This document shows, piece after piece, positions 14,753-52,355 of a stretch of DNA of 64,000 nucleotides. The stretch covers positions 1 to 64,000 of the forward strand of contig RPFO01000929.1 in NCBI GenBank assembly GCA_009746045.1, written 5' to 3'. Numbering within the stretch: the stretch's first letter is position 1; each line of letters begins with the position of its first letter. Under the pieces are notes generated by a model that saw nothing but the letters and a program-made list of their open reading frames with translations, was not told the origin of the DNA and ran no database searches. Position numbers and translations under genes: made by a program. Source of the DNA: Mesostigma viride. Taxonomy: Eukaryota > Streptophyta > Mesostigmatophyceae > Mesostigmatales > Mesostigmataceae.

Positions 14753-15272
14753 CCAACGGCCGTTGGCGCAAGAAAAATCACACCCTAATTTCCAGGTTCC
14801 AACGGCCGTTGGCGCAAGAAAAATGTCGACCGAATTTCCAGGTTCCAACGGCCGTTGGCGCAAGAAAAGTATCAACCAAATTTCCAGGTTCCAACGGCCG
14901 TTGGCGAAAGAAAAATCACACACTAATTTCCAGGTTCCAACGGCCGTTGGCGCGAGAAAAATGACACCCTAATTTCCAGGTTCCAACGGCCGTTGGCGCA
15001 AGAAAAATCACACACTAATTTCCAGGTTCCAACGGCCGTTGGCGCAAGAAAAATCACACCCTAATATCCAGGTTCCAACGGCCGTTGGCGCAAGAAAAAT
15101 CACACCCTAATTTCCAGGTTCCAACGGCCGTTGGCGCAAGAAAAATGTCGACCGAATTTCCAGGTTCCAACGGCCGTTGGCGCAAGAAAAATATCAACAA
15201 AATTTCCAGGTTCCAACGGCCGTTGGCGAAAGAAAAATCACACACTAATTTCCAGGTTCCAACGGCCGTTGG
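14753..15272. repeat. 46-bp tandem array built on the palindrome, 12 copies
   Basis: CCAACGGCCGTTGG starts at 14753 and then every 46 bp exactly to 15259. The spacer is of the type CGCAAGAAAAATCACAC, CCTAATTTCCAGGTT with scattered substitutions. The variant GTCGACCGAATT recurs seven units apart, so a block of units was duplicated. The array fills most of a 708-bp intron (14623-15330) of the minus-strand gene. Confidence 0.95.
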
Positions 15273-15330
15273 CGAACAAAAATCACATCTAGTGCCTACA
15301 ACGTTCCCACACCCGATCCGTTATATTTAC

Positions 15331-16452
15331 CTTTTGCGTCCGCATGTCCTTCATGGGCGGGATCAGTGCTTCCCCCTCCACCTCCCAGCCCTTGAGCACG
15401 TCCAGATTGGTGTACATGAACTTGTCCGCGTCCCTCACCAACCCCCTCCACAAATCAAACGCCTCCTCGGTTGTCTCCACGTACTTGCCCTTTTGTTTAC
15501 CGGCAATCTCGCCAGCTATCGCAGTCCTCACTTGCTCGTCTGAGCCCTCAAAAATCACGGACTTCAACATCTGCGTGTAGTGGTTGCCGTCCAGCACGGC
15601 AAACTGCGCAAACACGAAAGGCTTGTCGTACGCGAGCATGTAGCCCAACGCGGTGTTCGTGAGCTCAAGTACTGCCTCACGGTCAGATGCATCTGACCAC
15701 TCGGACGTATTCAAGTCCATGGTGATCAAATCCTGCGAGCACGCGGCCGCCATATCCTTCTTGGAGTGCGTCCGGAGAATGGCCCTCCCTTCCTCGGCCG
15801 TTGGCGAACGAAAGTATCCGAACCTCTGCACGGCACGGTCACTGTCCTCCCCCGTCAGTTTTTTAATTTTGTCAGAAAACCCTGGATTCTCTTCCAGCCA
15901 GGCATTGTAAGAATCGGGCTCCTGGTCTGCCAGCACCTGCCACGCAAACCGGAAGATCAGCACGGCACATTTTGCCTTCGTCAGACTTGTGCCGGCCCCC
16001 ACGAACCACGGCGCGAGCCCCTTACAATTCCGCACCGTCACCGTCCGATGCCTCATTAGTTCCGGGAGTTGGCACAAGTTGTCCGTAAAGACCCGTACTT
16101 GAGTCGCAATCGCGGACCCCCCCACGATGTCGACATCGTCTGGCACTAGACGAAACTTCTGCCGCAGATGAAACGCCGCCTGTATGCTGTCAGTTAGGTT
16201 CTTGTCGTGCACATGAGAGGATGGCGCTGGCTCCCAGGAGTCCAAAATGCTGGGCTTCGCATTTCCAGCACGTGTCGTCAGCAGCCCCTTCCTCTCAAAG
16301 GTCTTCACAATCCCCGACCATAAGTCGGTGCCCGGAGCTCGTTGGCGCCAGTCCTCAAAAAATGTTGTGAGATGCCTTTCCGCCACCCCATGTTCAATCT
16401 TGTAAGCCCACCTCCTCCGCTCTTCCTCCGTTCTCTGCCTTGACGGACGCCC
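15331..16452 (-). CDS. Putative internal exon of large minus-strand gene (374 codons)
   Basis: It is an open frame without interruption from the acceptor GTGATCAG|GGG to the donor CAAAAG|GTAAAT, both phase 0. It is the best-behaved exon of the gene, with normal amino-acid composition: EERRRWAYKIEHGVAERHL near the start, LIFRFAWQVLADQEPDSYNAW in the middle, FAQFAVLDGNHYTQMLKS near the end. I do not recognise a family. A half copy of the palindrome (CGGCCGTTGGCGAACGAAAG, about 15797-15816) is read through as coding sequence. Confidence 0.65.
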
Positions 16453-16502
16453 CTGATCACATGCAAAAAACATACAGATAGCCGGAAGGTCAGTACTATG
16501 TT

Positions 16503-17061
16503 CCAACGGCCGTCGCCGGAAAAATAACACCCTAATTTCCAGGTTCCAACGGCCGTTGGCGCATGAAAATCACACCCTAATTTACAGGTTCCAACGGCCG
16601 TTGGCGCATGAAAATCACACCCTAATTTCCAGGTTCCAACGGCCGTTGGCGAAAGAAAAATCACACCCTAATTTCCAGGTTCCAACGGCCGTTGGCGCGA
16701 GAAAAATGACACCCTAATTTCCAGGTTCCAACGGCCGTTGGCGCGAGAAAAATCACACCCTAATTTCCAGGTTCCAACGGCCGTTGGCGCAAGAAAAATG
16801 ACACCCTAATTTCCAGGTTCCAACGGCCGTTGGCGACAGAAAAATCACACCCTAATTTCCAGGTTCCAACGGCCGTTGGCGCATGAAAATCACACCCTAA
16901 TTTACAGGTTCCAACGGCCGTTGGCGCATGAAAATCACACCCTAATTTACAGGTTCCAACGGCCGTTGGCGCATGAAAATCACACCCTAATTTCAAGGTT
17001 CCGACGGCCGTTGGGCAAAAAAAAAATAACACCCTAATTTCCAAATTGCAACGGCCGTTGG
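16503..17061. repeat. Second 45-46-bp palindrome array, 13 copies
   Basis: Copies start at 16503, 16546, 16591, 16636, 16682, 16728, 16774, 16820, 16866, 16911, 16956, 17001 and 17048. Those at 16503, 17001 and 17048 are one- or two-base variants, so decay is concentrated at the edges. The spacer is the same family as in 14753-15272. The array lies in the large intron 16453-21617. Confidence 0.95.
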
Positions 17062-17082
17062 CGCAAGAAAATCAAGCAAGAA

Positions 17083-21579
<4,497 letters not shown>

Positions 21580-21617
21580 TGGCGCAAGAAAATCCCATCT
21601 TTGTGCGTAACACCTAC

Positions 21618-21917
21618 CCGGGCAGCTGGCAGTGTCTTGTGGGTTGCTTTTCCAGTTGCTGCCGTCGCGGCATCGGAACCCGATGACCCAGAAGCCGCCG
21701 ATTTCCTCCGCTCCTTCGCCGACTTTGCTGCATGAACGCCGCGCGCCTCTTGCCCCGACGATGGTGCGGGGGGAGGGGGCATTTGCTGTGCTGCCGCTGC
21801 AGCTTCCGACGGCGCGGAAGGGCCGGCGGCCGCAGGGGGCAACACCGGTGGCGGCGGAGAGCCCGGCGGCGGGGGCGCCGGCGGAGGGGAAGGCGGGTGG
21901 TTGTGCGTACAAGCACG
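21618..21917 (-). CDS. Putative proline-rich exon of large minus-strand gene
   Basis: It is flanked by a strong acceptor (pyrimidine tract then TGTCACAG|CG) and the donor GCCCGG|GTAGGT, phase 0. It encodes RACTHNHPPSPPPAPPPP, then an Ala/Pro linker and a basic Ser/Ala stretch (SAKERRKSAASGSSG). It reads on directly into the exon at 16452 if the 5.2-kb intron with the satellite is spliced. A disordered linker is likely. Confidence 0.5.
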
Positions 21918-22017
21918 CTGTGACACGCAGACGACAAAGAAAAAATCCGCCGAATATGTTAGCAAGCGGTGCGGTGCAGCACACACATCTGACAAAGCTC
22001 ATAGGTCAACCCTTAAA

Positions 22018-22463
22018 ACCGTGTCCAACTGCCCGCTATAAAAACCGGGCAATTGTCACTTTCCATGATAATGTCCACAAACCAACCTAATAGTTAGTTA
22101 TGGTCCATTATAGGACACAAGCACACACATATATTCACCACCTTGGGGGTCATGTCATTGGTCATATTGCAATGTCCTATGGGTGCCAAATATAGCACCC
22201 CCTGACAGAAAGGAAGCTAGTAAAGGGCTCATGAACACCAAGGTTGCATGTGGAGGAGCAGGGACCCAGCTGCAAGCTCTAACAATAAATGCCCACTACA
22301 AATAGCGGACAGTTTGGTTTGTGACACCTGTTAGCATTACAAAGCTCAATTCTCATCCCGTAGCAACAAAAATGTAATGTCCGCTGTAAATATCACTCAA
22401 AACGGCTAAAGGGTTAAAACGAAGTTGTAGTTGTTTTGCGGCATCAAGTTTCAAAGTACGTAC
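22018..22463. other. Non-coding stretch with a recurrent short motif
   Basis: Three related segments, TGCCCGCTATAAAAACCGGGCA (about 22029-22050), GCCCACTACAAATAGCGGAC (about 22291) and GTCCGCTGTAAATA (about 22379), recur. The first is an inverted repeat. No gene is seen. Confidence 0.4.
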
Positions 22464-22559
22464 TGGGATACCCTTCGCCAGCCTGCTTGGCATCCAGTAG
22501 GATAAGATCTTGGAACCAGTAAGGGGGCTTCGCTTGCTGCGGCAGATGGTGCAATCCAT
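22464..22559 (-). CDS. Possible first exon of large minus-strand gene
   Basis: A 32-codon frame begins with ATG at 22559 (MDCTICRSKRSPLTG) and ends at the donor ATCCCA|GTACGT in phase 0. An AG acceptor (GCGCAG) lies just before it, so it could be internal. The CxxC pair could bind zinc. It is included because its boundaries and phase match the downstream exons, but nothing else supports it. Confidence 0.3.
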
Positions 22560-22566
22560 TGTGATC

Positions 22567-22850
22567 TGCGCGCAAAACATACACAAACGAACAACCCTCA
22601 TAGGTTGAGCAATCCACAAAATCATGCCATTACTGTAACAACATGGGCAAAGCATACACAAACGAACAACCATCATAGATTGAGCTAGCAATCCACAACA
22701 TCATGCCATTACTGTAACAACATGGGCAAAGCATACACAAACGAACAACCATCATAGATAGAGCTAGCAATCCACAACATCATGCCATTAATGTAATAAC
22801 ATGGGCAAAACATACACAAACAAATAGCCATGATAGGGCATTAAGAGAAT
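22567..22850. repeat. About 79-bp tandem repeat, 3-4 copies
   Basis: Units contain ACATGGGCAAAGCATACACA, AACGAACAACCATCATAGA and CCACAACATCATGCCATTA in that order. Later copies drift and become truncated. No coding potential is seen. Confidence 0.8.
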
Positions 22851-22897
22851 AGCCATGATTGGGGCAATAAGAGAATTTTTTTTGTTCAATTCAATGA

Positions 22898-23421
<524 letters not shown>

Positions 23422-23643
23422 GACACCAAGGTTGAGACTTACATGCATCGTTGCAAGGGTTGAAACAATAACGAAATTGTATGACCACAGACACATAAAA
23501 TGGAAGGCTTGCTCAGTATTATTATTTACCCATCAATCAATTTTAAAGGCAAGGAAATGTTGAAATACGGACGACCGTCCCAAGTTCGCCAGCATTAACA
23601 AAAGCATTTCTGTGACAAGAACAGTGGGCGACCATTCCCATTA
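23422..23643. other. Intergenic, nothing recognised
   Basis: This stretch lies between the rpoB fragment and the stop codon of the next minus-strand gene. No ORF, palindrome or repeat was noted. Confidence 0.5.
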
Positions 23644-24432
23644 TTATCTTTTCCTCGTTTGTTTCTTCCCCTTCCCGGACTCGTATTCATAAGCGACGTC
23701 CGCCATCCCCAAACGATGCAAAATTTTGTTGGAGCTCTGCATCTTCTCCAACAGTTCTTGATCCGATTCCTCCTTTGCACGACGCGCTTCCTCTGCCTTC
23801 GCCTTTGCGGCCTCCACATCTGCATCTATATCCGCCTTCACCACCATCCTGATCAAACGGTCCCGCTCCTCAGGCCTCGGGAGCGTCGGCAGTCTCACCG
23901 GCTCTGCGGCAAGAAGAGCCTCCAAAATATCCTTGTGCAGTCTTTGTGCTTCCACAAATCCATTATTCATCATCAAGGTGTACGCGCATTCACGCGCCAC
24001 ACCCTGCAAGGAATCCCCCATGGTAACGTTTTGCCCATGAGCAAACCCGTACGCGCTGTCCCCCTCTGCCGAAATCTCGAGTCCCTGCCTGTCGAGGCGC
24101 ACCAGCTCAACTTTCCGTTCCCCAGTGTGCGTTGCCGTGAAGTGGAGGACCGAGCGTGTCATTCCGGTCTTCCCCATCAACATCTGCAAACTTGCTACGT
24201 ATGCGATCCCACGAGCGCACACGTCCTCCAACTTCTCGGCAAAAGGTAGATGTGTCTTGCAATACACATCCAATCCCTCCAGTGGTCTATCACATCTAAG
24301 AAATCCACACCCCCCGTATGGATCCTTGGCATTTTGGTACTCGAGGTCGTGCGCTTGTAGGAACTTGTAATGTTCCGCGCACAGTCCCTCGACCCTTACG
24401 GGCTCCGTACAGATTTTGCATTTCGTTGCCAT
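23644..24432 (-). CDS. CX4C/CX2H zinc-finger family protein (paralogue 1)
   Basis: Start chosen at ATG 24432 (GCGCAG ATG GCA ACG), which aligns with the start of the paralogue at 26631 (MATKC versus MAVKC); the open frame runs further upstream without an ATG-specific reason. The N-terminus has two finger-like motifs, CKICTEPVRVEGLCAEH and CGFLRCDRPLEGLDVYCKTH (the second is CX4CX10CX2H). A globular middle follows (VLHFTATHTGERKVELVRL), then a long charged helix rich in Glu/Lys/Ala (EAAKAKAEEARRAKEES) and a basic tail. Function unknown; zinc binding is inferred from spacing. CAG precedes the ATG, so it could also be an exon start after a 5' intron. Confidence 0.65.
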   Translation of the reverse strand: MATKCKICTEPVRVEGLCAEHYKFLQAHDLEYQNAKDPYGGCGFLRCDRPLEGLDVYCKTHLPFAEKLEDVCARGIAYVASLQMLMGKTGMTRSVLHFTATHTGERKVELVRLDRQGLEISAEGDSAYGFAHGQNVTMGDSLQGVARECAYTLMMNNGFVEAQRLHKDILEALLAAEPVRLPTLPRPEERDRLIRMVVKADIDADVEAAKAKAEEARRAKEESDQELLEKMQSSNKILHRLGMADVAYEYESGKGKKQTRKR

Positions 24433-24655
24433 CTGCGCAATTGCCATGAGTCCCATACAGCAGCCATTGTATAACAGGGGCAATAAGGACCGTCAGAACC
24501 CCCTCTGGCGTCTTTCTCACACAATTCTCAATCTAGTCTTGTTGTGCAATAATTGTTGGTTCAAAGGTCCGTTCAAAGAAGTTTTATGAGACAAAATAAA
24601 TTAGTTTCAATTACACGCATCAGATTAATCAAATCATATTTTCTCCCTCTCTTTC

Positions 24656-25237
24656 TTACTGAGCAATTCTGTCCATCCTGCCCCTCTTTGCCGGCTTCTC
24701 ATCAATCTCCTCATCAAAATCACACACACGTCTAATCTGCTGTCTAATCTGCTCTACCAACCCCCCCTTGCGCATCAGGTCTTTCACCTCCCCCTTCAAG
24801 AGCGCTGTCACGAGTCGCGCGCACTCATACGCGGACTCCGTGGCCAGGTCCCTTCCCATATCATGCCACACTTTGGCCGTTGGACAGTCGGGATGGTCTC
24901 CCATGTAAGCCCACACATGCCTTGGCGGCTTGTCCTTACCGCCTATCCCCTCTCCAGGTCGCATCTGTCCCACCTCCTCTATCACCCACTCTGCATCACG
25001 CAGCATGAATCGAGGCTTCTTGTCAACATAGTACAAGACCAAAACCATGTTGTTGGGCCAAGGCTTCCACTTTTTCGTCACGATGTGACGGTCAATCGTC
25101 ATCAGCCCGCTCTCGATTTCGGCAAACAACGCCCCCCATACGTCAGAATGCTTGGGACAGAACCACTCGCTTTCCGTCGGCACTCCTTCCCATTGACAAT
25201 CCGGATGTTCGCATCGAATGGGGTCATCGAATGAGGT
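24656..25237 (-). CDS. CX4C/CX2H zinc-finger family protein (paralogue 2)
   Basis: Start chosen at ATG 25237 (CACAG ATG ACC), again with CAG directly before ATG. One finger, CEHPDCQWEGVPTESEWFCPKH (CX4CX12CX2H), is followed by a middle region with VLVLYYVDKKPRFML and ending ECARLVTALLKGEVKDL. These resemble VLHFTATHTGERKVE and ECAYTLMMNNGFVEAQ of the neighbour at 23644. The C-terminus is basic (KPAKRGRMDRIAQ). Two palindromes lie 57 and 92 bp upstream. Function unknown. Confidence 0.65.
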   Translation of the reverse strand, partial: TSFDDPIRCEHPDCQWEGVPTESEWFCPKHSDVWGALFAEIESGLMTIDRHIVTKKWKPWPNNMVLVLYYVDKKPRFMLRDAEWVIEEVGQMRPGEGIGGKDKPPRHVWAYMGDHPDCPTAKVWHDMGRDLATESAYECARLVTALLKGEVKDLMRKGGLVEQIRQQIRRVCDFDEEIDEKPAKRGRMDRIAQ

Positions 25238-25293
25238 CATCTGTGCACATCGATATTTTTTACACCACCCGCAAACGCACGCATTCAGCAGGG

Positions 25294-25342
25294 TCAACGG
25301 CCGTTGGCCCTGTTAAATTCCACACACCCCAACGGCCGTTGG
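25294..25342. promoter_or_regulatory. Two palindromes upstream of the 25237 start
   Basis: TCAACGGCCGTTGG (25294-25307; one base off the perfect dyad, on the gene side) and CCAACGGCCGTTGG (25329-25342). A regulatory role is inferred from position only. Confidence 0.5.
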
Positions 25343-25434
25343 CCTTAGACGCACAAAACTTGACACCATCAGGCGATTTTTTCCAAATGATTCTTCTTTA
25401 TTAAATAAATTTACATTCATCCTAAAATCACATT

Positions 25435-25812
25435 CTAGTCAACATCCTCCCCATCTTTAGTGGGTTGCATTCGACCCCAATTGTCGTTCATAAAACTGAC
25501 CAAAACATGAGCCGGAGTCCCCACATCCTCCTCACGCCTCAATTTACGCAATACACCTTTAGCAATTCCACCATACCCATCAACCTCCGACATCATCATG
25601 CCCACGCCATCAAGACGTTCAGCGTGCAATTGCCCGTCCTCTTCGAGAACCAGATCGGGCAGGTCTTCCAGTTCGGCCTCCACAATCTCTATCAGGTTTT
25701 CCTTTGTAGTCCCCCCCTTCCTTTCCTTCTTTTCCGCACTCCATCCTACACCCTGCCCCTGCACAACCGACGTCCATGGCAAGTTAAGAAACGGACTCAG
25801 CTCACAGGACAT
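25435..25812 (-). CDS. Small acidic protein in the zinc-finger cluster
   Basis: ATG at 25812 (MSCELSPFLNLPW) is preferred to the longer frame, whose first residues are only the translated palindrome. The protein is 125 codons and rich in Glu/Asp (EIVEAELEDLPDLVLEEDG), ending GEDVD. No finger is seen. A palindrome lies 10 bp upstream of the ATG and 14 bp after the stop of the 25849 gene. No family recognised. Confidence 0.5.
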   Translation of the reverse strand: MSCELSPFLNLPWTSVVQGQGVGWSAEKKERKGGTTKENLIEIVEAELEDLPDLVLEEDGQLHAERLDGVGMMMSEVDGYGGIAKGVLRKLRREEDVGTPAHVLVSFMNDNWGRMQPTKDGEDVD

Positions 25813-25821
25813 TTTGCAAGT

Positions 25822-25835
25822 CCAACGGCCGTTGG
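25822..25835. promoter_or_regulatory. Palindrome between two genes
   Basis: A perfect CCAACGGCCGTTGG, the only dyad between the stop at 25849 and the ATG at 25812. Confidence 0.5.
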
Positions 25836-25848
25836 CGACCAAAAACAC

Positions 25849-26631
25849 CTAGTCGCATGCATTCCTTGCTCTCTCCACCAAAGCAGAGGCCAGGACGACC
25901 CTTTCCACGACCTTTTCAATTTCCTCCCCCTCAGCATCAGCAACAACGGTCATGGCAAATCGGGCTTGGCGCTTAACCCCCGATGCCAGAACGGCAGCCA
26001 TCTCCACACGAGTTTTTGACACTTCAACAGGTACAGGCAATTCGCCGACCGCAAAAGTAAGCCTTGCGAGGTGCGGGACCCACCAATCACCTTCCAAAAA
26101 TCCGCAACCCCATCCAATCATGAAATACAACAACAGGTCTGCGCCCATGGCGCCTGCGATATCCAAGTCGTCATGCGAAACAATCGCATGCACGTCATCC
26201 TCCGAGCACAGCATCCATGTAAAAACGGCGTCCCCGAAACCTTGGCAGTAGGCATACGAGTCAAAGTCAGGGTGATTCAACATCCATTCCCGCGACCGGA
26301 CCGCCATTCTTTCCAGACTTCCAGCACCGTCCACCTCAAAACTCAGGACAAGAGGTCCTTCACCAGCACTGGACTCGCCATTCACAAACAACAAGCCTCC
26401 TTTGATCACCTCTTGCATCTCCCCTGACAACTTGGCGTGTCCATCACAAAAAGGCATGCAATCCGTCCCGAATGGAAGCTGGCAATCCCGGGCGATACAT
26501 CCCCCCTTTTTTGCAAACAAATCCTTCACCCTCCCTGCCATTCCCGTTCGCACGCTGACATGACGCACGCACAAGTCATCCCCTCCTGCTCTCGCTTCCT
26601 GGCACCACGCAACCGTGCATTTGACCGCCAT
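25849..26631 (-). CDS. CX4C/CX2H zinc-finger family protein (paralogue 3)
   Basis: Start at ATG 26631 (TCGCAG ATG GCG GTC), parallel to paralogue 1; an in-frame upstream ATG at 26661 would add MCIKRCWWSQ. Two fingers: CTVAWCQEARAGGDDLCVRH (CX4CX10CX2H) and CIARDCQLPFGTDCMPFCDGH. The following VLSFEVDGAGSLERMAVRS and DFDSYAYCQGFGD align loosely with the VLHF...ER...SAYGFAHG region of paralogue 1. A hydrophobic patch (GADLLLYFMIGWGCGF) could be a buried core or a short membrane segment. Ends NACD, like the neighbouring RLCD. Function unknown. Confidence 0.65.
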   Translation of the reverse strand: MAVKCTVAWCQEARAGGDDLCVRHVSVRTGMAGRVKDLFAKKGGCIARDCQLPFGTDCMPFCDGHAKLSGEMQEVIKGGLLFVNGESSAGEGPLVLSFEVDGAGSLERMAVRSREWMLNHPDFDSYAYCQGFGDAVFTWMLCSEDDVHAIVSHDDLDIAGAMGADLLLYFMIGWGCGFLEGDWWVPHLARLTFAVGELPVPVEVSKTRVEMAAVLASGVKRQARFAMTVVADAEGEEIEKVVERVVLASALVERARNACD

Positions 26632-26670
26632 CTGCGACCACCAACACCGTTTGATACACATTTCTCACCG

Positions 26671-26684
26671 TCAACGGCCGTTGG
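26671..26684. promoter_or_regulatory. Palindrome variant upstream of paralogue 3
   Basis: TCAACGGCCGTTGG, 40 bp before ATG 26631. It is the first of three palindromes in a segment duplicated at 27510-27765. Confidence 0.5.
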
Positions 26685-26741
26685 CTTGAAACAACAAGAA
26701 TGATTTATTACTCGCACGAAAATCACACCATTTTCCAGTCT

Positions 26742-26755
26742 CCAACGGCCGTTGG
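26742..26755. repeat. Palindrome
   Basis: Perfect CCAACGGCCGTTGG; second dyad of the duplicated leader, with flanks TTTTCCAGTCT and CGCACGAAAAA that extend the symmetry. Confidence 0.8.
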
Positions 26756-26847
26756 CGCACGAAAAATGCACGAAAAAAATTTTTATTATGCATTTATTGA
26801 TTACATCCATAGTGCCACGTGGCGAATCACACCCAACTTTCCAGCTG

Positions 26848-26861
26848 CCAACGGCCGTTGG
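26848..26861. repeat. Palindrome
   Basis: Perfect CCAACGGCCGTTGG, 26 bp beyond the stop of the 27504 gene; third dyad of the duplicated leader. Confidence 0.8.
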
Positions 26862-26886
26862 CGCAAAGAAAATCACACCCAACACT

Positions 26887-27504: not shown

Positions 27505-27544
27505 CTGCAACCCACCGACACCGTTTGATATACATTTCTCACCG

Positions 27545-27558
27545 TCAACGGCCGTTGG
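27545..27558. promoter_or_regulatory. Palindrome variant upstream of the 27504 gene
   Basis: TCAACGGCCGTTGG, 41 bp before the ATG. Same variant and nearly the same spacing as at 26671. Confidence 0.5.
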
Positions 27559-41230: not shown

Positions 41231-41520
41231 TAAATACATGTGGTGTGGTGCTGGCATGCATGGATGGGTGTAGTGGGGTGCTGGCATGCGTGGATGGGTG
41301 TCATGGGGTGCTGGCATGCATGGATGGGTGTCATGGGGTGCTGGCATGCATGGATGGGTGTCATGGGGTGCTGGCATGCATGGATGGGTGTCATGGGGTG
41401 CTGGCATGCATGGATGGATGTCATGGGTGCTGGCATGCATGGATGGGTGTCATGGGGTGCTGGCATGCGTGGATGGGTGTCATGGGGTGCTGGCATGCAT
41501 GGATGGGTGTAGTGGGGTGA
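41231..41520. repeat. 30-bp variant minisatellite, copy 1
   Basis: About ten units of GGATGGGTGTCATGGGGTGC plus TGGCATGCAT. It shares TGCTGGCATGCAT with the 29-bp unit, so it is a derived subfamily. Confidence 0.95.
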
Positions 41521-42430
41521 ACCATGAAAAAAAGCACGCAACACACCACGCGTCGTACCTTTTTATAGATGTTTCTTTTTTTTTTATGGGGCCGGCCGGG
41601 GCGGCGGTGGCGGCAAAACTGAAGCTAGTGACACCGCGCAGATGACGCCGTGAACATGTCGCGTTGTACCGTAGAAGATACGAACAAAAAACAAAACACG
41701 AAAAAAGAGAGGCGGACCGCATATGACAGGGACAAAAAAAAGTCAGACACACAGCCTGTGATATCTGGCATGCATAAATACATGTGGTGTGGTGCCGGCA
41801 TGCATAAATACATGTGCCAGCAAACCTGAGCTGCAAGGGAGCGAGAAAACCAAGAAAAAAAGCACGCAACACACCACGCGTCGTACCTTTTATAGATCGA
41901 TGTTTCTTTTTTTTAATGGGGGCGGCCGGGGGCGGCGGTGGCGGCAAAAATGAAGCTAGTGACACCGCGCAGATGACGCCGTGAACATGTCGCGTTGTAC
42001 CGTAGAAGATACGAACAAAAAACAAAACACGAAAAAAGAGAGGCGGACCGCATGTGACAGGGAAGAAAAAAAGTCAGACACACAGCCTGTGTTATCTGGC
42101 ATGCATAAATACATGTGGTGTGGTGCCGGCATGCAAAAATACATGTGCCAGCAAACCTGAGCTGCAAGGGAGCGAGAAAACCAAGAAAAAAAGCACGCAA
42201 CACACCACGCTTTGTACCTTTTATAGATAGATGTTTCTTTTTTTTAATGGGGCCGGCCGGGGCGGCGGTGGCGGCAAAAATGAAGCTAGTGACACCGCGC
42301 AGATGACGCCGTGAACATGTCGCGTTGTACCGTAGAAGATACGAACAAAAAACAAAACACGAAAAAAGAGAGGCGGACCGCATATGACAGGGAAGAAAAA
42401 AAGTCAGACACACAGCCTGTGTTATCTGGC
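41521..42430. repeat. 330-bp repeat units, block 1 (about 2.8 copies)
   Basis: Units start near 41520, 41849 and 42180 with GAAAAAAAGCACGCAACACA. Each contains a T-run, a GGCCGGCCGGGG/GGCGGCGGTGGCGGC island, ACCGCGCAGATGACGCCGTG and a terminal GGCATGCATAAATACATGTG, which links it to the 29-bp unit. Confidence 0.95.
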
Positions 42431-45400
42431 ATGCATAAATACCGAGGGGGGGATGCTGGCATGCATAAATACCTAGGGGGGGTGCTGGCATGCATAAATA
42501 CCTAGGGGGGTGCTGGCATGCATAAATACCTAGGGGGGGTGCTGGCATGCATAAATACCTAGGGGGGTGCTGGCATGCATAAATACCTAGGGGGGGTGCT
42601 GGCATGCATAAATACCTAGGGGGGGTGCTGGCATGCATAAATACCTAGGGGGGGTGCTGGCATGCATAAATACCTAGGGGGGGTGCTGGCATGCATAAAT
42701 ACCTAGGGGGGGTGCTGGCATGCATAAATACCTAGGGGGGGTGCTGGCATGCATAAATACCTAGGGGGGTGCTGGCATGCATAAATACCTAGGGGGGGTG
42801 CTGGCATGCATAAATACCGAGGGGGGGTGCTGGCATGCATAAATACCTGGGGGGGTGCTGGCATGCATAAATACCTAGGGGGGTGCTGGCATGCATAAAT
42901 ACCGAGGGGGGTGCTGGCATGCATAAATACCTAGGGGGGGTGCTGGCATGCATAAATACCTAGGGGGGGTGCTGGCATGCATAAATACCTAGGGGGGGTG
43001 CTGGCATGCATAAATACCTAGGGGGGGTGCTGGCATGCATAAATACCTAGGGGGGTGCTGGCATGCATAAATACCTAGGGGGGGTGCTGGCATGCATAAA
43101 TACCTAGGGGGGGTGCTGGCATGCATAAATACCTAGGGGGGGTGCTGGCATGCATAAATACCTAGGGGGGGTGCTGGCATGCATAAATACCTAGGGGGGG
43201 TGCTGGCATGCATAAATACCTAGGGGGGTGCTGGCATGCATAAATACCTAGGGGGGGTGCTGGCATGCATAAATACCTAGGGGGGTGCTGGCATGCATAA
43301 ATACCTAGGGGGGGTGCTGGCATGCATAAATACCTAGGGGGGGTGCTGGCATGCATAAATACGTCGGGGGGGTGCTGGCATGCATAAATACCTAGGGGGG
43401 GGCTGGCATGCATAAATACCTAGAGGGGGTGCTGGCATGCATAAATACCGAGGGGGGTGCTGGCATGCATAAATACCTAGGGGGGGTGCTGGCATGCATA
43501 AATACCGGGGGGTGCTGGCATGCATAAATACCGAGGGGGGGTGCTGGCATGCATAAATACCTAGGGGGGGTGCTGGCATGCATAAATACCGGGGGGGTGC
43601 TGGCATGCATAAATACCTAGGGGGGGTGCTGGCATGCATAAATACCTAGGGGGGGTGCTGGCATGCATAAATACCTAGGGGGGGTGCTGGCATGCATAAA
43701 TACCTAGGGGGGGTGCTGGCATGCATAAATACCGGGGGGGTGCTGGCATGCATAAATACCTAGGGGGGGTGCTGGCATGCATAAATACCTAGGGGGGGTG
43801 CTGGCATGCATAAATACCTAGGGGGGTGCTGGCATGCATAAATACCTAGGGGGGGTGCTGGCATGCATAAATACCTAGGGGGGGTGCTGGCATGCATAAA
43901 TACCTAGGGGGGGTGCTGGCATGCATAAATACCTAGGGGGGGGCTGGCATGCATAAATACCTAGGGGGGTGCTGGCATGCATAAATACCTAGGGGGGGTG
44001 CTGGCATGCATAAATACCTAGGGGGGGTGCTGGCATGCATAAATACCTGGGGGGGTGCTGGCATGCATAAATACCTAGGGGGGGTGCTGGCATGCATAAA
44101 TACCTAGGGGGGTGCTGGCATGCATAAATACCGAGGGGGGTGCTGGCATGCATAAATACCTAGGGGGGGTGCTGGCATGCATAAATACCGAGGGGGGGTG
44201 CTGGCATGCATAAATACCAGGGGGGTGCTGGCATGCATAAATACCTAGGGGGGGTGCTGGCATGCATAAATACCGAGGGGGGTGCTGGCATGCATAAATA
44301 CCTAGGGGGGGTGCTGGCATGCATAAATACCTAGGGGGGGTGCTGGCATGCATAAATACCTAGGGGGGGTGCTGGCATGCATAAATACCTAGGGGGGGTG
44401 CTGGCATGCATAAATACCTAGGGGGGGTGCTGGCATGCATAAATACCTAGGGGGGGTGCTGGCATGCATAAATACCTAGGGGGGTGCTGGCATGCATAAA
44501 TACCTAGGGGGGGTGCTGGCATGCATAAATACCTAGGGGGGGTGCTGGCATGCATAAATACCTAGGGGGGGTGCTGGCATGCATAAATACCTAGGGGGGG
44601 TGCTGGCATGCATAAATACCGAGGGGGGTGCTGGCATGCATAAATACCGAGGGGGGTGCTGGCATGCATAAATACCTAGGGGGGGTGCTGGCATGCATAA
44701 ATACCTGGGGGGTGCTGGCATGCATAAATACCGGGGGGGTGCTGGCATGCATAAATACCTAGGGGGGGGGCTGGCATGCATAAATACCTAGGGGGGTGCT
44801 GGCATGCATAAATACCTAGGGGGGGTGCTGGCATGCATAAATACCTAGGGGGGGTGCTGGCATGCATAAATACAGGGGGGTGCTGGCATGCATAAATACC
44901 TAGGGGGGGTGCTGGCATGCATAAATACCGAGGGGGGGTGCTGGCATGCATAAATACCGAGGGGGGGATGCTGGCATGAATAAATACCTAGGGGGGGTGC
45001 TGGCATGCATAAATACCTAGGGGGGGTGCTGGCATGCATAAATACCTAGGGGGGGTGCTGGCATGCATAAATACCTAGGGGGGTGCTGGCATGCATAAAT
45101 ACCTAGGGGGGGTGCTGGCATGCATAAATACCTAGGGGGGTGCTGGCATGCATAAATACCTAGGGGGGGTGCTGGCATGCATAAATACCTAGGGGGGGTG
45201 CTGGCATGCATAAATACCTATGGGGGGGTGCTGGCATGCATAAATACCTAGGGGGGGTGCTGGCATGCATAAATACCTAGGGGGGGCTGGCATGCATAAA
45301 TACCTAGGGGGGTGCTGGCAAGCATAAATACGTCGGGGGGGTGCTGGCATGCATAAATACCTAGGGGGGTGCTGGCATGCATAAATACCGAGGGGGGGTG

Positions 45401-45612
45401 CTGGCATGCATAAATACCTAGGGGGGGGGCTGGCATGCATAAATACATGTGGGGGGTGCTGGCATGCATAAATACCTAGGGGGGGTGCTGGCATGCATAA
45501 ATACCTAGAGGGGGTGCTGGCATGCATAAATACCTAGGGGGGGTGCTGGCATGCATAAATACCTAGGGGGGGTGCTGGCATGCATAAATACCTAGGGGGG
45601 TGCTGGCATGCA
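42431..45612. repeat. 29-bp minisatellite, block 2
   Basis: Same unit as block 1, about 110 copies. The last part repeats the irregular variants seen at the end of block 1 in the same order. Confidence 0.97.
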
Positions 45613-45900
45613 TAAATACATGTGGTGTGGTGCTGGCATGCATGGATGGGTGTAGTGGGGTGCTGGCATGCGTGGATGGGTGTCATGGGGTGCTGGCATG
45701 CATGGATGGGTGTCATGGGGTGCTGGCATGCATGGATGGGTGTCATGGGGTGCTGGCATGCATGGATGGGTGTCATGGGGTGCTGGCATGCATGGATGGA
45801 TGTCATGGGGTGCTGGCATGCATGGATGGGTGTCATGGGGTGCTGGCATGCGTGGATGGGTGTCATGGGGTGCTGGCATGCATGGATGGGTGTAGTGGGG
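45613..45900. repeat. 30-bp variant minisatellite, copy 2
   Basis: Near-identical to 41231-41520, including the single GGATGGATGTC unit. Confidence 0.95.
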
Positions 45901-46950
45901 TGAACCATGAAAAAAAGCACGCAACACACCACGCGTCGTACCTTTTTATAGATGTTTCTTTTTTTTTTATGGGGCCGGCCGGGGGCGGCGGTGGCGGCAA
46001 AACTGAAGCTAGTGACACCGCGCAGATGACGCCGTGAACATGTCGCGTTGTACCGTAGAAGATACGAACAAAAAACAAAACACGAAAAAAGAGAGGCGGA
46101 CCGCATATGACAGGGACAAAAAAAAGTCAGACACACAGCCTGTGATATCTGGCATGCATAAATACATGTGGTGTGGTGCCGGCATGCATAAATACATGTG
46201 CCAGCAAACCTGAGCTGCAAGGGAGCGAGAAAACCAAGAAAAAAAGCACGCAACACACCACGCGTCGTACCTTTTATAGATCGATGTTTCTTTTTTTTAA
46301 TGGGGGCGGCCGGGGGCGGCGGTGGCGGCAAAAATGAAGCTAGTGACACCGCGCAGATGACGCCGTGAACATGTCGCGTTGTACCGTAGAAGATACGAAC
46401 AAAAAACAAAACACGAAAAAAGAGAGGCGGACCGCATGTGACAGGGAAGAAAAAAAGTCAGACACACAGCCTGTGTTATCTGGCATGCATAAATACATGT
46501 GGTGTGGTGCCGGCATGCAAAAATACATGTGCCAGCAAACCTGAGCTGCAAGGGAGCGAGAAAACCAAGAAAAAAAGCACGCAACACACCACGCTTTGTA
46601 CCTTTTATAGATAGATGTTTCTTTTTTTTAATGGGGCCGGCCGGGGGCGGCGGTGGCGGCAAAAATGAAGCTAGTGACACCGCGCAGATGACGCCGTGAA
46701 CATGTCGCGTTGTACCGTAGAAGATACGAACAAAAAACAAAACACGAAAAAAGAGAGGCGGACCGCATATGACAGGGAAGAAAAAAAGTCAGACACACAG
46801 CCTGTGTTATCTGGCATGCATAAATACATGTGCCAGCAAACCTGAGCTGCAAGGGAGCGAGAAAACCAAGAAAAAAAGCACGCAACACACCACGCGTCGT
46901 ACCTTTTTATAGATGTTTCTTATTTTTTATCCTTGTCCTTCGGGGGCAGC
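45901..46950. repeat. 330-bp repeat units, block 2 (about 3.2 copies)
   Basis: Units start near 45906, 46232, 46563 and 46864. They match block 1 unit by unit until about 46826, after which an extra partial unit leads into unique sequence. Confidence 0.95.
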
Positions 46951-47370
46951 GGTGGCGGCAAAAAGAAAACTGATAGCAAACGAGAACCCTGCAACCAAAC
47001 GAGAACCACCAAAAAAACCCATTCATTTCCCCGTCAGCGACCGGCACCACGACACCAAAAAAGCGACAAAATTATCTGGCCGATTACGCCAATCATAAAA
47101 CCACTATCTGTCAAAAGCATCCATGTACATCCACCGCCATTGCTCACCTCTTTCTTAACCGTGTGTGTCGACAATGGCGTTGCTCAGTTGAATATGGCTG
47201 TCGGGTTGCTAATATCGTTGTCACTTTCGGCCGATGTCGCGAATACCCGCCGTTGATGCTCGGGTGCAAGGTGCATCCACGGTGTCGGTCTTCCAGGGAG
47301 GCTGGAAAGCGCCAACGCAGCACCAGCAAATTCAAATTCCCTGGTGCTGGTATGCCGACGCGCAAATGGA
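46951..47370. other. Unique sequence, no gene recognised
   Basis: Short frames only. Position 47163-47414 was checked on plus and 47144-47606 on minus; neither looks like a protein. Confidence 0.5.
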
Positions 47371-47600
47371 ATGGCGCGGCGCCTAAAAGGCGCCGCGCGC
47401 GGGAAAAAAATTGACGCGCCAAACGATATGGCGCGGCGCCGGGACGGCGCCGCGCTGAAAAATACTTGCAGTCGCAACTGTGACGTGGCGCTGCAGACCA
47501 CACGGTAGGGAATTCGCAGCGCCATATATGGCGCCACGCCGACTCCTGACGCCGTGTGGCGCCACATGGACGCGGCGCTGCACACAGCTCGAGCCCATTT
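47370..47600. other. GGCGCC hairpin cluster
   Basis: GGCGCGGCGCC-TAAAA-GGCGCCGCGC, GCGCGGCGCC-GGGA-CGGCGCCGCGC and the palindrome GGCGCCATATATGGCGCC-like GCGCCATATATGGCGC follow each other, with two more GGCGCC/GCGCTGC cores. This density of strong hairpins in 230 bp is unlike the surroundings. Confidence 0.7.
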
Positions 47601-47679
47601 TTTCACATTCCTGCTACCTGATTGGACGCCTGGCGGAGGAAGCTTTTCACGGCGCGACGCCGAGGGGCTTCAAAAACGT

Positions 47680-47687
47680 ATATAAGC
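47680..47687 (+). promoter_or_regulatory. TATA-like element
   Basis: GTATATAAGC lies about 60 bp before a tRNA-like segment. It is suggestive of a transcription start but unproven. Confidence 0.3.
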
Positions 47688-47744
47688 AGGCAAAATTTCT
47701 CCGAAATTTAATGAACGAGCGCGACGCGGAGACCATGCTAGTGT

Positions 47745-47855
47745 GCGGAACTGGTGAACCACACCGGTACGGGACAGATTCTTGGCTGATCCTCGTAGTA
47801 CCTCGTGAACACGTCTAGTAGGCCCGGGTTCAACTCCCGTCGTAACATTTTTTTT
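47745..47855 (+). ncRNA. tRNA-like or Pol III-type element
   Basis: GGGTTCAACTCC (about 47831-47842) is a good B-box/T-arm. It is followed by CGTCGTAAC and a T10 run (Pol III terminator type). Upstream, GCGGAACTGGT resembles an A-box/D-arm. I could not fold a standard tRNA: the acceptor 5' strand is uncertain. It may be a decayed tRNA, a tRNA-derived SINE head, or another Pol III RNA. Confidence 0.35.
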
Positions 47856-48285
47856 TGGGTTGGTGTGGCAAGCCTATAAAGCAATCCGCAAACCACTACA
47901 CGGCTGGTAAGATTTAATATAATAAGCAACCTAATAGCTATATCAAAAATGTTTATGGGCATGGAAATTTTTAATATGTTGATATTAGACTGCAATGAAA
48001 CGAATATGCAACCTGCCCCCCTATGTTTAATACAATTATTATTATTATTTGTGGCATGAATATAATAATTGTGTGAAATACAATGCTATGTGCAATATAT
48101 TGCTGGTATGCCATGCAATTGTAACCAACAGGTGCAAGACCAAAAGGCGTCTTCAGGGCCCACCTGCTGCGAACAAGAGCTATGGCGGCAAGAGGTGCGT
48201 GCAGGGTTACGGATTTACGGGGTTGTTGACCACCAAATTTGTTGTTACGTGTGTTATGGAAACATTTCAGTCGAATTTCTGGGTT
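47856..48285. other. Unassigned intergenic sequence
   Basis: AT-rich then mixed. No protein-like frame was noted; a TATAAAAAG lies at about 48303, before the 62-bp array. Confidence 0.5.
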
Positions 48286-48963
48286 CCAACGGTCGTTAAG
48301 GTTATAAAAAGTGCGTTGGGATTCGGAAATTCACATCCTGGCGTGTAAAAAATGCAGGTGTTGGCGAGTTTTCGGCCCGCTTTCAGGGGTCCAACGGCCG
48401 TTGGGTGTCTAAAATGCATGCGTTAGCGTGTTTCCGGCCCGCTTTCAGGGGCCCAACGGCCGTTGGACGTCGAAAATGCATGTGTTGGCGTGTTTTCGGC
48501 CCGCTTTCAGGGGTCCAACGGCCGTTGGGTGTCGAAAATGCATGTAAAGGGCGTGTTTCAGGCCCACTTTCAGGGGTCCAACGGCCGTTGGGTGTAGAAA
48601 ATGCATGTGTTGGCGTGTTTTCGGCCCGCTTTCAGGGGTCCAACGGCCGTTGGGTGTCGAAAATGCATGTGTTGGCGTGTTTCAGGCGTACTTTCAGGGG
48701 TCCAACGGCCGTTGGGTGTCGAAAATGCATGTGTTGGCGTGTTTCAGGCCCACTTTCAGGGGTCCAACGGCCGTTGGGTGTCGAAAATGCATGTGTTGGC
48801 GTGTTTTCGGCCCGCTTTCAGGGGTCCAACGGCCGTTGGGTGTCGAAAATGCATGTGTTGGCGTGTTTCAGGCCCACTTTCGGGGGTCCAACGGCCGTTG
48901 GGTGTCGAAAATGCATGTGTTGGCGTGTTTCAGGCGTACTTTCAGGGGTCCAACGGCCGTTGG
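48286..48963. repeat. 62-bp tandem array built on the palindrome
   Basis: Perfect dyads start at 48391 and then every 62-63 bp to 48950 (10 copies), after a decayed one at 48286 (CCAACGGTCGTTAA). The unit is GTGTTGGCGTGTTTTCGGCC, CGCTTTCAGGGGT, dyad, GTGTCGAAAATGCAT. Only the dyad is shared with the 46- and 209-bp arrays. Two sub-variants (TTTTCGGCCCGC and TTTCAGGCGTAC or TTTCAGGCCCAC) are interspersed. Confidence 0.95.
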
Positions 48964-49033
48964 GACCTACAAATTGGGTAATTGTTGGAAAGCAATAATT
49001 TGATAAAAAGTCAAAACTTCGTCTGGATTCTGT

Positions 49034-50200
49034 ATGCGCGCGGATGCAGGTGAAGCGCACAACAAAGACCTAAGTCTCAAGTACGTCGAGATCAAGGGCA
49101 ACCAACTTGCCCTCGACATGGCCAGCGCAATGGAATACTTGCTGAAGGACAACAATCACAAGACTGAAAACACGAAAACTGCAGTAGGCTTGAGGGCGCT
49201 TGAGCGGCTGCCAGGTGCGGTTGTGAAGGTTATGGGGAAACAGTACCGCCCTGCGCTGAAAAGAAAGGCGTCGGAGTCCTTCGCTCAGGAGGTTGTCGCT
49301 AATATCGTGCAAGGTTTCCAGGAATTGGGCAAGTCGGATGAGCACAGGAACGCGAAGTGCGCTGTGCTGTCAATGTGCTTGGGAAAGGACGGCATGAACA
49401 ATCAAGGGCATTGCACTCTCGCGCGGCTGCTTCACGTCACGCCCAAGGATATCCAGACCGCAAGGGGAATGAGGATGGGGGGCGACCTTCCCGCCCTGAA
49501 GGCGCCCCCTCGTGCTTTACGGTCGGACAAGTTTCCGGAGGAGGTCAAAGACATCGTCGGGAGTTACTGGTTGTCAGACCTAAACACGAGGGCGTCTCCC
49601 AACCATAAGGACGTGGTCAATGAGTTCGAAAGGAAGGGAAACGCCAGGATCCTCATTTCCTCCCAGGGCGGAAGGTACTATTTGGACTCGCTTGAAACGA
49701 TTTACAAGCGGTTCTGTTCTGACGCGTCGCCGTACAAGGGAGGTATCGTGACGACTGCGGACGGGACAAGGTACAAGGTGGGGTACACGAAGTTCGTGGA
49801 GTTCATGCCCAAGTGCGTAAAGGGCGTGTGGAAGGACCGGGACTTGTGCGCATGCGAAAAGCACGTCGTCTTCGAGTCTCTGCTCTCTGCCTTCGCCAAA
49901 GGCGTCAAGGAGTTGAAGAGCACGCTGGAGATCGAGGAGAGGGAGGGTATCCCTTCCGTGCCTGACAATGCCCATGATTTCGTTCGACGTTTCACCTGCC
50001 ACAGGGCTGAGAGGGGGGAGGGGGGGCAAGGAGGGGGGAGGACGGGCGGCCCGTTCGTTAACGTCCCAATGAACTGCTTGGAAGGGACGTGCAACGAGTG
50101 TGGGATTTCCGAGTTCATCGTGACGGACCAGATGAAGGGGTGGACAAAGAAGTACACGTGGTTCGACTTCATAAAGGAGGGCACAGCGCCCCGTGGGACG
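49034..50200 (+). CDS. Transposase-like gene, exon a
   Basis: 389 codons from ATG 49034 to the donor GGGACG|GTAAGC (phase 0). An AG (GGATGCAG at about 49048) just after the ATG leaves open that the exon starts by splicing. Content: a helical N-terminus, a basic KRKASESFAQEVV, YWLSDLNTRASPNHKDVVNE, cysteine motifs CACEKH and CLEGTCNECG (CX4CX2C), and GWTKKYTWFDFIKEGTAPRG. The cysteine cluster directly before the catalytic-type exon is typical of a family of transposase-like proteins found in animals and algae. Confidence 0.7.
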
Positions 50201-50456
50201 GTAAGCATGTATATTTGCATCGTTGAATATATATATGTAGACTTTCATACTTCCAACGGCCGTTGGCGTTGGGAAATTCCCAGCTGCTGACTTCCATTCT
50301 TCGGTCAATCCATGGTGCGCGGGCATGTATATTTGCATCGTTGAATATATATATGTAGACTTTCATACTTCCAACGGCCGTTGGCGTTGGGAAATTCCCA
50401 GCTGCTGACTTCCATTCTTCGGTCAATCCATGGTGCGCGGGTGTGTTGTGTTGCAG
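50201..50456 (+). other. Intron 1: tandemly duplicated 118-bp unit with palindrome
   Basis: GTAAGC...TTGCAG. The intron consists almost wholly of two 118-bp copies (about 50213-50330 and 50331-50448), each with a perfect dyad (50253 and 50371). Confidence 0.75.
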
Positions 50457-51212
50457 GAGGAGGATGTGGCGCCGCAAATGAACCTGCAGCAAAAACTCAT
50501 CAAGTCAACCCTCTCGGAGCTCCATGAACTCATTACGGCGCGCTTCCCGGAATTCGCCATTCACGTCCATACATGGGCCTGGCAGCACCACGCTTACAAG
50601 GAGTGCATTGACGTGATGCCGCTGGGAACGGTGGTGGTCCTGATGGACTACTCGGAGAACTATTCGGACCACCTGCAGAAACAGTTGCAGGCGCAGTACT
50701 GGTACCCAAGTAGTTACGTCCTGATGCCGGTGATCGTGATGTACCGTGATCCCGTATCGCTGGAAATCAAAAGGGTGAAGCACGATTACATGGGGAAGGA
50801 CGTACCGAGGAATGCCCAGACCCTGGAGTTCGTGATGAAGAATACCCTTAACGTGCTGAGGGAGGAGGGGGTGGAGGTGAGGAACTGGATCAGTTGGTCC
50901 GACAACTGTAAGGAGCAGTTCCAATCCCGGTATGTGTTGGCGATGGCTGCGGACCTGCTCGAGGCCGACCCCGACTTGGAATCATTGGAGTGGAACTACT
51001 CGTGTGCAGGACATGGGAAGGGGGAGTCGGACGGGGAGGGGGGGACGGTCAAAAGCATCCTCAAAAGAGCGCAGATGCAGGAGGACAATCGGAACCTGAA
51101 TACGGTGGAGGCACTGGTGGCCTACCTGAACCGGGATTGGAGAACCGGCAAAGACTCGAGTCGACCATCGGCACAATCGGACGTGGTTCGACGGGCATTT
51201 CTTCTCGATAAC
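50457..51212 (+). CDS. Transposase-like gene, exon b (DDE/RNase H-fold-like domain)
   Basis: 252 codons, phase 0 at both ends (donor GATAAC|GTAAGT). Three motif blocks occur in order: VVLMDYSENYSDHLQKQ, ISWSDNCKEQFQSRY and CAGHGKGESDGEGGTVK. From memory these match the D[FY]xENY ... SD[GN]xxxQ[FY] ... HGKGxxDGxGGTVK pattern of uncharacterised transposase-like proteins with acidic catalytic residues in the first two blocks. The fold and activity are inferred from these motifs; no search was run. A nucleic-acid cutting or joining role would follow if the acidic residues are catalytic. Confidence 0.65.
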
Positions 51213-51514
51213 GTAAGTAAAGACAGTTGCTTTCTGGTGGTCAAGTGCAGTTCTATAATTTGTCTCTGGTTACACTTTACAGAGGACAGCTTCCTTGATG
51301 CAGTTTGAAGTTTCATAAGGCCAACGGCCGTTGGAGCTGGAAAATCGTATAATTGTTGAGTGCCAACGGCCGTTGGAGTTGAGAAATGTACTTATATAAA
51401 GTTTCCAAGGGCCAACGGCCGTTGGAGTTGGGAAATCTTATAATTGTTGAGTGCCAACGGCCGTTGGAGTTGGGAAATGTGCTGTGATGTTGTTTCATGG
51501 AATTACAATTGCAG
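51213..51514 (+). other. Intron 2 with four palindromes
   Basis: GTAAGT...TTGCAG. Dyads at 51321, 51363, 51412 and 51454, with flanking GAGTTGGGAAAT or GAGCTGGAAAAT. The pair 51321/51363 repeats as 51412/51454, a 91-bp duplication. Confidence 0.75.
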
Positions 51515-52182
51515 ATTCTCACGTCCGGTAAGGAGCGAGGCCCGATCCGAGATATCTCCACGGCACACCAGTGGCGACTGGACAAAAAGGGCGAGCGGGT
51601 CGAGGTGGTAAAGCTCAGGCGTTTTTCATGCTTCAGTTGTGCGGAGTGCCGAGAGGGCAAGTGGACGACATGCCCAAACGATTGGAGCAGCTCGTCGTGG
51701 ACTGTAAAACTCCAGGCGAGTAAGTCGCGGAACCCCACGCGATATCCGGGAACCCGCCTGAACCACGTTCAAACGGCAAGAAACGAGTTGGGGCGTGGTT
51801 TGCAGGAGGGGGAGGCCGTCGCAGTCGCATCTGAGAGGGGGCACAAGGACCATGTGCCCGACCACCCGTACTGGTTGGCGAAAGTTGTTCGAGTCGCCCA
51901 CCAACTCGACAAGGATGAGTGTTTAAACAAACATACAGGGGGGGGGGCGAGGTTTTTAAGAAAGGCAACTGGGTAATGTACGTAAAATACTTCGAGAGGT
52001 GCTCCTCCTCCGGATCGGACGCCCGACGCTTCTTCTGGAACCCAGACGACCGAGAACCCTTAACTGCAATCGTGTGCTACCTGAGCGTCGCAAAGGTCAC
52101 GAAGGGCAAGTGGGAAGGACATCCGGACAACACGCGACAGGGCTGGTTCACAATTGCGAAGAAGGTGGACGCCGAAATTACG
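51515..52182 (+). CDS. Transposase-like gene, exon c (frameshift at a G-run)
   Basis: Opens after ATTGCAG|ATT in phase 0: ILTSGKERGPIRDISTAHQW, FSCFSCAECREGKWTTCPN, then DHPYWLAKVVRVAHQLD. The frame breaks at ten Gs (51938-51947); the next frame continues EVFKKGNWVMYVKYFERC and PLTAIVCYLSVAKV up to a possible donor ATTACG|GTACGT. WLAKVVR...WVMYVKYFE resembles VVRKVDKTGVWYVKFW of the other large gene, so both may end in a similar small beta-barrel. The last exon is not found before the TG repeats; the gene may be 3'-truncated. Confidence 0.6.
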
Positions 52183-52341
52183 GTACGTCATTCCAAACAT
52201 TACTGTGTAAAATTGGTGTTTGTATGTCGCATGTGTTTTTTTGTCGACGGTCGTTCACCTTACTAATGTTACATACAGGGCAATCAGCCTATACTTTAGC
52301 TTGGCTGCATGGCGCATGTCGCATATCTTAATTTCTCAAAG

Positions 52342-52355
52342 CCAACGGCCGTTGG
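52342..52355. repeat. Palindrome, last copy in the window
   Basis: Perfect dyad 160 bp after the possible donor, perhaps in a third intron. Confidence 0.7.

Follow-up and report, generated by a model that had tools for sequence, protein, structure and literature searches.

The VANC proteins of the VANDAL transposons of Arabidopsis bind a short motif that is concentrated, within the transposon family they come from, in introns and in intergenic and terminal non-coding DNA, and silencing is thereby lifted (PMC5735166; PMC10398659). In the VANC21 study, the motifs also stand upstream and multiply as dynamic tandem repeats, and the domains named for VANC are DUF1985/DUF287 (PMC5735166). We report here on a 64,000-nucleotide stretch of the Mesostigma viride genome (GenBank assembly GCA_009746045.1, contig RPFO01000929.1, positions 1 to 64,000; hereafter the window), which holds most of a giant DNA transposon with terminal inverted repeats (TIRs). 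A 14-bp palindrome, CCAACGGCCGTTGG (the 14-mer, or dyad), is repeated within this transposon and, by the alignment of its flanks, forms the core of a 38-bp bipartite palindrome that is most likely a protein-binding site.

The transposon may work like the VANDAL/VANC system, judging by the placement of its sites and their tandem growth, with no membership of that group implied. The likeness lies in a motif concentrated in the non-coding DNA of one transposon family, where it is both dispersed and gathered in fast-changing tandem repeats, and in the self-targeted control that we infer here. The VANC21 motif, however, is YAGTATTAY, 9 bp long and non-palindromic (PMC5735166), whereas the site here is a 38-bp bipartite palindrome in an element of 38-65 kb. 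No Pfam match to a VANC-type domain (DUF1985/DUF287) was found in the element open reading frames (ORFs) scanned, some exons lying outside the scan. VANDALs are members of the MULE superfamily with a target duplication of ~9 bp, whereas the duplication here was 4 bp in 5/5 copies.

Other systems resemble the locus in single respects. Baculovirus homologous regions (hrs) consist of a ~30-bp palindrome that is repeated across one genome and bound by a dimeric regulator, IE-1 (PMC6669502), but they belong to a viral genome and differ in sequence and protein, whereas the present sites lie in an integrated transposon. The mitosis-specific activator (MSA) elements bound by MYB3R proteins share the core AACGG (PMC8964727), two overlapping inverted copies of which make up part of the dyad. 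MSA, however, is a host promoter motif, whereas the present sites were confined to the transposon in the loci examined. To our knowledge, neither outer A-tracts nor confinement to a transposon is part of MSA elements. Teratorn, Maverick/Polinton and Starships are likewise tens of kilobases long and carry cargo genes (PMC6431247). On the features compared, however, none matches: variable 4-bp duplications, G-rich inverted ends and a transposase-like protein without a Pfam family. Literature searches for a comparable giant algal transposon brought up reviews and papers on Starships, Teratorn and polintons. Teratorn and other piggyBac elements duplicate TTAA, whereas five other tetranucleotides were duplicated here, and Maverick/Polinton elements carry capsid and polB genes and have a duplication of 5-6 bp, as against the 4 bp here. 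A Maverick/Polinton capsid had no match among the element ORFs scanned, and no separate polB search was made.

The boundaries of the transposon were read by comparing the window's contig with a second contig, C1. Homology between the two stopped at 10891 and 75834, where the contig carries TIRs of ~20 bp (Table 1). The TIR end pattern had 254 genomic matches at ≤1 mismatch, and the base directly outside it could be A, T, G or C, as expected for a true element boundary. All five copies in which both ends could be read were flanked by 4-bp target-site duplications, namely TTTA (the window copy), TGAA, TCAA, CTAC and CAGG; TGAA is weaker evidence because it lies within a short AATGA-type simple repeat, and CTAC and CAGG presuppose that the right end is a GGGAAGG variant, which is present among the TIR end matches. 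The five copies were 38 to 65 kb long. The stops in homology, the inverted ends and the 4-bp duplications together show that the greater part of a giant TIR transposon lies in the window.

The first-pass annotation of the window had reported about 70 copies of the 14-mer between 13 and 52.4 kb, against a chance expectation below one. We found 71 matches at ≤1 mismatch, 60 of them exact, from 13046 to 52355, whereas shuffled versions of the window gave a mean of 0.02 and never more than 1. Across the whole 76.4-kb contig there were 77 sites at ≤2 mismatches (63 exact), every one within the transposon. By window coordinates, no site fell in the CCAT arrays, in the 29-, 330- and 40-bp satellites or in the copia/long terminal repeat (LTR) region, again as first described. 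In the whole assembly (440 Mb, 2,243 contigs) the exact 14-mer occurred 9,685 times and a reversed control pattern 0 times. These copies were clumped rather than evenly spread: the first 50 exact sites listed, all on C1, fell in stretches L113-L117, where the sequence is homologous to that of the contig with the window. Among nine further 10-kb stretches not chosen for dyads, seven were dyad-free, and the remaining two (L123, and L124, which comes next on the contig of the window) carry the giant transposon. The dyad copies examined are thus internal parts of one giant DNA transposon. Scans of the window with Rfam (at gathering scores) and for tRNAs gave no match, and a text search of the literature did not find the 14-mer and found its 10-bp core only in four papers, unrelated by title.

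Four dyad-bearing blocks were used as markers of the internal order of the copies. Block A (built on the site at 13046, with up to one mismatch) had 198 genomic matches; block B (one dyad joined to the start of a small ORF), 135; block T (a pair of sites separated by 153 bp at about 73.6 kb of the contig), 352; and block R (the intron site at 51321), 89. Among the matches listed, the blocks recurred in constant order and strand. Block B was accompanied by A in 50/62 cases and A by B in 51/99, with none on the wrong side or strand; R was accompanied by B in 16/41, by T in 13/29 and by either in 18/29, with 0 wrong in the first two pairings, and A by T in 8/24, of which 1 was on the wrong side. 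The block B matches listed were identical even at the free positions. Missing partners are expected from short contigs, deleted copies or partners beyond the matches listed. Dividing the 9,685 exact genomic dyads by the 63 of this contig gives 154, in keeping with block counts of 198, 135, 89 and 352/2 = 176 and with the 254 TIR matches. The assembly holds roughly 90-200 copies of the transposon; the haploid number may be lower, since both haplotypes may be represented.

To define the repeated unit, the 77 sites were sorted by flank similarity into 25 groups, which is an upper bound on independence because some flank groups are probably related. When the half-sites were stacked outward from the centre, they read CCGTTGG at positions 1-7, with C or A favoured at 8, hardly any preference at 9 and 12-13, weak preferences at 10-11 and mostly purine at 14. 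Positions 15-17 were AAA in 38, 42 and 42 of the 50 half-sites, with a weak T at 18-19, and past position 19 the information was ≤0.18 bit. In 21 of the 25 groups, one or both sides had AAA at precisely 15-17, as compared with a mean of 1.2 and a maximum of 7 in 2000 sets of random placements; counted by single sites, the feature was present in 72/77. The outer A-tract thus lies about one helical turn from the core. This stack indicates that the conserved unit is a 38-bp bipartite palindrome and that the 14-mer is only its core, the shared sequence ending not at the edge of the 14-mer but near position 19. With flanks that are otherwise unlike, such a stack means that the copies do not appear to derive from a single longer repeat. 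Because C or A is favoured at position 8, the site also has a direction, which matched the gene strand in 12 of the 13 definable groups; the polarity and grouping tests both presume partial independence.

The 46-, 209- and 62-bp arrays first described around the 14-mer are present (Table 1). Their other sequence is unlike, as had been said, save for the AAA/TTT at 15-17 from the centre that the arrays have in common. The size of the ~208-bp array varies: the window copy has 13 sites and the C10 copy 11 (≤1 mismatch). Single copies had been placed between and within genes, and those within genes proved to lie mostly in introns: by hand-made gene models for the whole contig, only 1/77 sites and 1/25 groups fell in coding sequence (P=3e-5), while the coding share of the tested non-satellite element was 41% by the same models. 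The ratio of observed to expected CpG was 0.88 in the element (0.85 without the dyads) and 0.58-0.82 in seven dyad-free stretches, so CpG depletion is not apparent.

Constraint on the site was estimated by comparing copies of the element, each position being counted once. Between copies there were 0/574 changes in the core, 5/574 in the spacers, 3/246 in the A-tracts, 75/3511 in the near flank and 61/6433 in farther sequence (core versus near flank, p=1.5e-5; core versus all flank, p=9e-4), which indicates that the core is constrained. Within three arrays of 24, 13 and 10 units, variation was 0.6, 1.7 and 0% in the core and 0.7, 5.1 and 0% in the A-tracts, as compared with 15.7, 20 and 11.2% in the other flank, so that both core and A-tracts are constrained there. 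The case for the A-tracts rests on the stack of flank groups and on the arrays. Taken with the flank groups, the constraint on the core between copies and on core and A-tracts within arrays gives good support to the first-pass proposal that the active part is the dyad, acting as a dimer-binding site and amplified in several arrays. The observation itself stood throughout and its interpretation in part; what the first pass had missed was the transposon, the A-tracts further out and the fact that sites are concentrated in introns and upstream regions.

Table 1. Features of the transposon and its palindromic sites (window coordinates unless the contig is named)
Feature	Coordinates	Strand	Remarks
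Giant TIR transposon	10892..64000, continuing to 75834 of the contig	.	64.9 kb in this copy; bounded by end of homology to C1 copies, TIRs and flanking TTTA
Target-site duplication TTTA	10888..10891	.	Again directly after right end
Left terminal inverted repeat GGGGGGGCCCACAATCAATC	10892..10911	+	Near inverse of right end
Right end GGGGAGGCCCACACTAAATC	contig 75815-75834, beyond window		Near inverse of left TIR
ORF A2	12320..14089	-	Basic low-complexity tail; holds sole coding-region site (13046, one mismatch)
Gene A1	14118..16455	-	Two exons flanking the 46-bp array in the intron; no match to a family above cut-off
46-bp array, 12 dyads	14712..15287	-	Inside frame-keeping GT-AG intron ~15331-14623 of gene A1
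Second 46-bp array, 13 units	16500..17074	-	One unit with two mismatches; directly upstream of exon starting ~16455
Isolated sites beside small ORFs	25294..27760	-	Those at 25822 and 26671, for example, are both 10 bp from an ATG
~208/417-bp array, 13 dyads (10 exact)	28719..31230	-	Upstream of ORF 28233-28679
Isolated sites	31567..35229	-	Non-coding DNA around F-box-like and MYND ORFs
Cargo ORFs	32211..34320	-	F-box-like 32211-33233 (weak, below cut-off); MYND finger 33520-34320
62-bp array, 10 dyads	48349..48964	+	Upstream of transposase-like gene Z
Gene Z, candidate transposase	49034..52299	+	HGKG motif in exon 2, 50457-51212
Gene Z intron 1	50201..50456	+	Frame-keeping; two dyads in two 118-bp units
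Gene Z intron 2	51213..51514	+	Frame-keeping; four dyads
Dyad downstream of gene Z	52342..52355	+	

Exon 2 of gene Z encodes DYSENY..WSDNCKEQF..HGKGESDGEGG, and we tentatively read the product as transposase-like by resemblance. The exon has more than 100 near-identical copies in the genome, and among the best 150 of 705 candidates, 65 were 100% identical across 252 residues. A second HGKG family (e.g. C1:1364682 and C1:2258801), with frames of 466-1064 aa and 46% identity, accounted for 18 of the best 150 matches. Many identical copies together with a 46% second family are as expected of a transposase. In the window copy, the reading frame of exon 3 is broken near a G run. The HGKG protein had no Pfam match, no significant PDB match and no relatives in IMG/VR, and a literature text search for 'HGKG' together with 'transposase' found none.

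Several further observations concern the element and its surroundings. The window copy carries a nested segment of ~6.7 kb (~53364-60037) that a C1 copy lacks and that is probably the nested LTR (copia-like) element named in the first-pass annotation. By eye, an AAGGAC hexamer array of ~750 copies at 17083-21579 adjoins the second 46-bp array, possibly within the same long intron; 22960-23425 resembles a fragment of plastid rpoB, which suggests that the host bears plastids and that the transposon carries plastid DNA; and a ~200-bp unit at 31610-31810 has inverted ends and a tRNA-like B-box and is possibly a short interspersed nuclear element or a miniature inverted-repeat transposable element (MITE). 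On C1, pieces homologous to the window lie 2.9 Mb apart (2.10-2.20 Mb and 5.08-5.10 Mb) beside N gaps and may be two copies or a scaffolding error. The left end and block A at C1:3403054-3405219, with no listed exact dyad nearby, are probably a deleted transposon copy. A MULE-like transposase frame (L117 9741-10000, and L137) seems by eye to adjoin the left end of the C1 copy.

The MYND and F-box-like cargo ORFs prompted us to consider an endogenous giant virus, which was rejected. Ten capsid loci of 3.6 kb each, with a GC content of 0.59-0.63, held 0 dyads, and the 108 IMG/VR stretches containing the 14-mer had only one copy each. Major capsid proteins of the type found in nucleocytoplasmic large DNA viruses gave 507 candidates in the genome, of which 150 were scored, and 0 in 14 control genomes. 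Endogenous viral elements thus appear to be abundant in the genome (e.g. L127-L136) and seem to be distinct from the transposon.

Our preferred explanation, which we hold with moderate confidence from the sequence pattern, is that an activator or anti-silencer encoded by the element acts through the 38-bp sites; binding, the identity of the binding protein and the effect of binding are all inferred. In this view a sequence-specific protein, probably element-encoded, would as a dimer grip CGTTGG and, one helical turn outward, the A-tract of each half. Bound at many clustered non-coding sites, this protein would switch on the element's own genes or keep them unsilenced, leaving those of the host untouched. 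The 46-, 62- and ~208-bp arrays would have been born by local tandem duplication around the sites and retained because more sites bind better. The near-absence of sites from coding sequence, the unchanged core and the spacers, which pair no more often than expected by chance, point to a dimeric protein rather than a hairpin, and a dimer making two contacts per half would fit the pattern better than a structure. Going further, we tentatively propose a giant transposon with its own regulon, in which a self-encoded dimer could read ~70 sites in the introns and upstream regions of the element and so protect or activate all element genes at once.

Several observations weigh against this explanation. 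No match to a DNA-binding family was found in the element ORFs scanned, some exons being outside the scan. Three groups of sites lie 1.3-3.3 kb from the next modelled exon, and several sites stand by the right end (73635-75353), away from any known gene; a pure promoter role would need neither placement. Because 25 is an upper bound, the 25-group tests are optimistic. Between copies, the A-tracts had no measurable extra conservation relative to the near flank (p=0.49), and the distant flank was also less variable than the near flank. Finally, the AAA/TTT tracts were complementary across the centre at 0.73, slightly above the 0.67 of chance (P=0.019), which could also fit a structural role for the palindrome.

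In that structural reading, the palindrome would act as an RNA hairpin, serving as a terminator or processing signal, or as a DNA cruciform or breakage hotspot that seeds duplication. The perfect 14-bp inverted repeat, the repeated birth of arrays around the dyad and the agreement of site polarity with gene strand would also suit it. We nonetheless consider it very unlikely: most folds gave a 5-bp stem closed by a GGCC loop, spacer complementarity was 25% as compared with 29% expected, and five folded RNA examples (z of +0.56 to -1.51 versus shuffles) were not clearly more stable than chance. The first-pass suggestion of a miniature mobile palindrome, or a MITE inserted repeatedly, would account for the same core in many flank groups, but is scarcely plausible. 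It is the 38-65 kb transposon that moves: all copies examined were within it, no insertion junction and no dyad-only insertion was seen in these loci, and the conservation is bipartite with free spacers instead of forming a contiguous block.

The sites could alternatively be docking points for the transposase or for a replication or segregation factor, iteron- or hr-like, that mobilises or copies the 38-65 kb unit. Baculovirus hr palindromes bind IE-1 and serve both as enhancers and as origins (PMC6669502), and here several sites lie near the right end as well as upstream of and inside gene Z. The sites, however, are spread over ~62 kb, with none in the first ~2 kb at the left end. Typical transposase sites are instead subterminal. 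Furthermore, the 4/4 copies of the sister HGKG family examined on C1 below 5.09 Mb were at least ~60 kb from any exact dyad listed, and we regard docking as unlikely. A host R1R2R3-MYB could also bind the sites through the MSA core, the element borrowing the host's G2/M activator, since the dyad contains two overlapping inverted AACGG cores and a MYB3R-driven promoter with repeated forward and reverse AACGG cores has been described (PMC8964727). AACGG alone, however, leaves the two-part 38-bp site unexplained, the first 50 exact C1 sites listed were all within transposon copies, and the unselected stretches, a small sample searched with the 14-mer and the 10-mer core only, were either dyad-free or held the transposon. 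Host control of this kind is therefore, in our view, quite doubtful.

How very large transposons remain expressed in genomes that silence them is a largely open question. With an element-encoded dimer acting through the 38-bp sites as the preferred explanation, the transposon looks like a selfish element with a private control switch, and it offers a motif of a 38-65 kb transposon that is dense and conserved enough for direct testing. It also shows clearly, as judged from the sequence, how tandem arrays can grow up around a single functional site, and suggests that element-specific binding-site arrays of the VANDAL type arose in another lineage. If true, the self-encoded regulon would amount to a counterpart of VANC anti-silencing that is independent of it and based on a palindrome.

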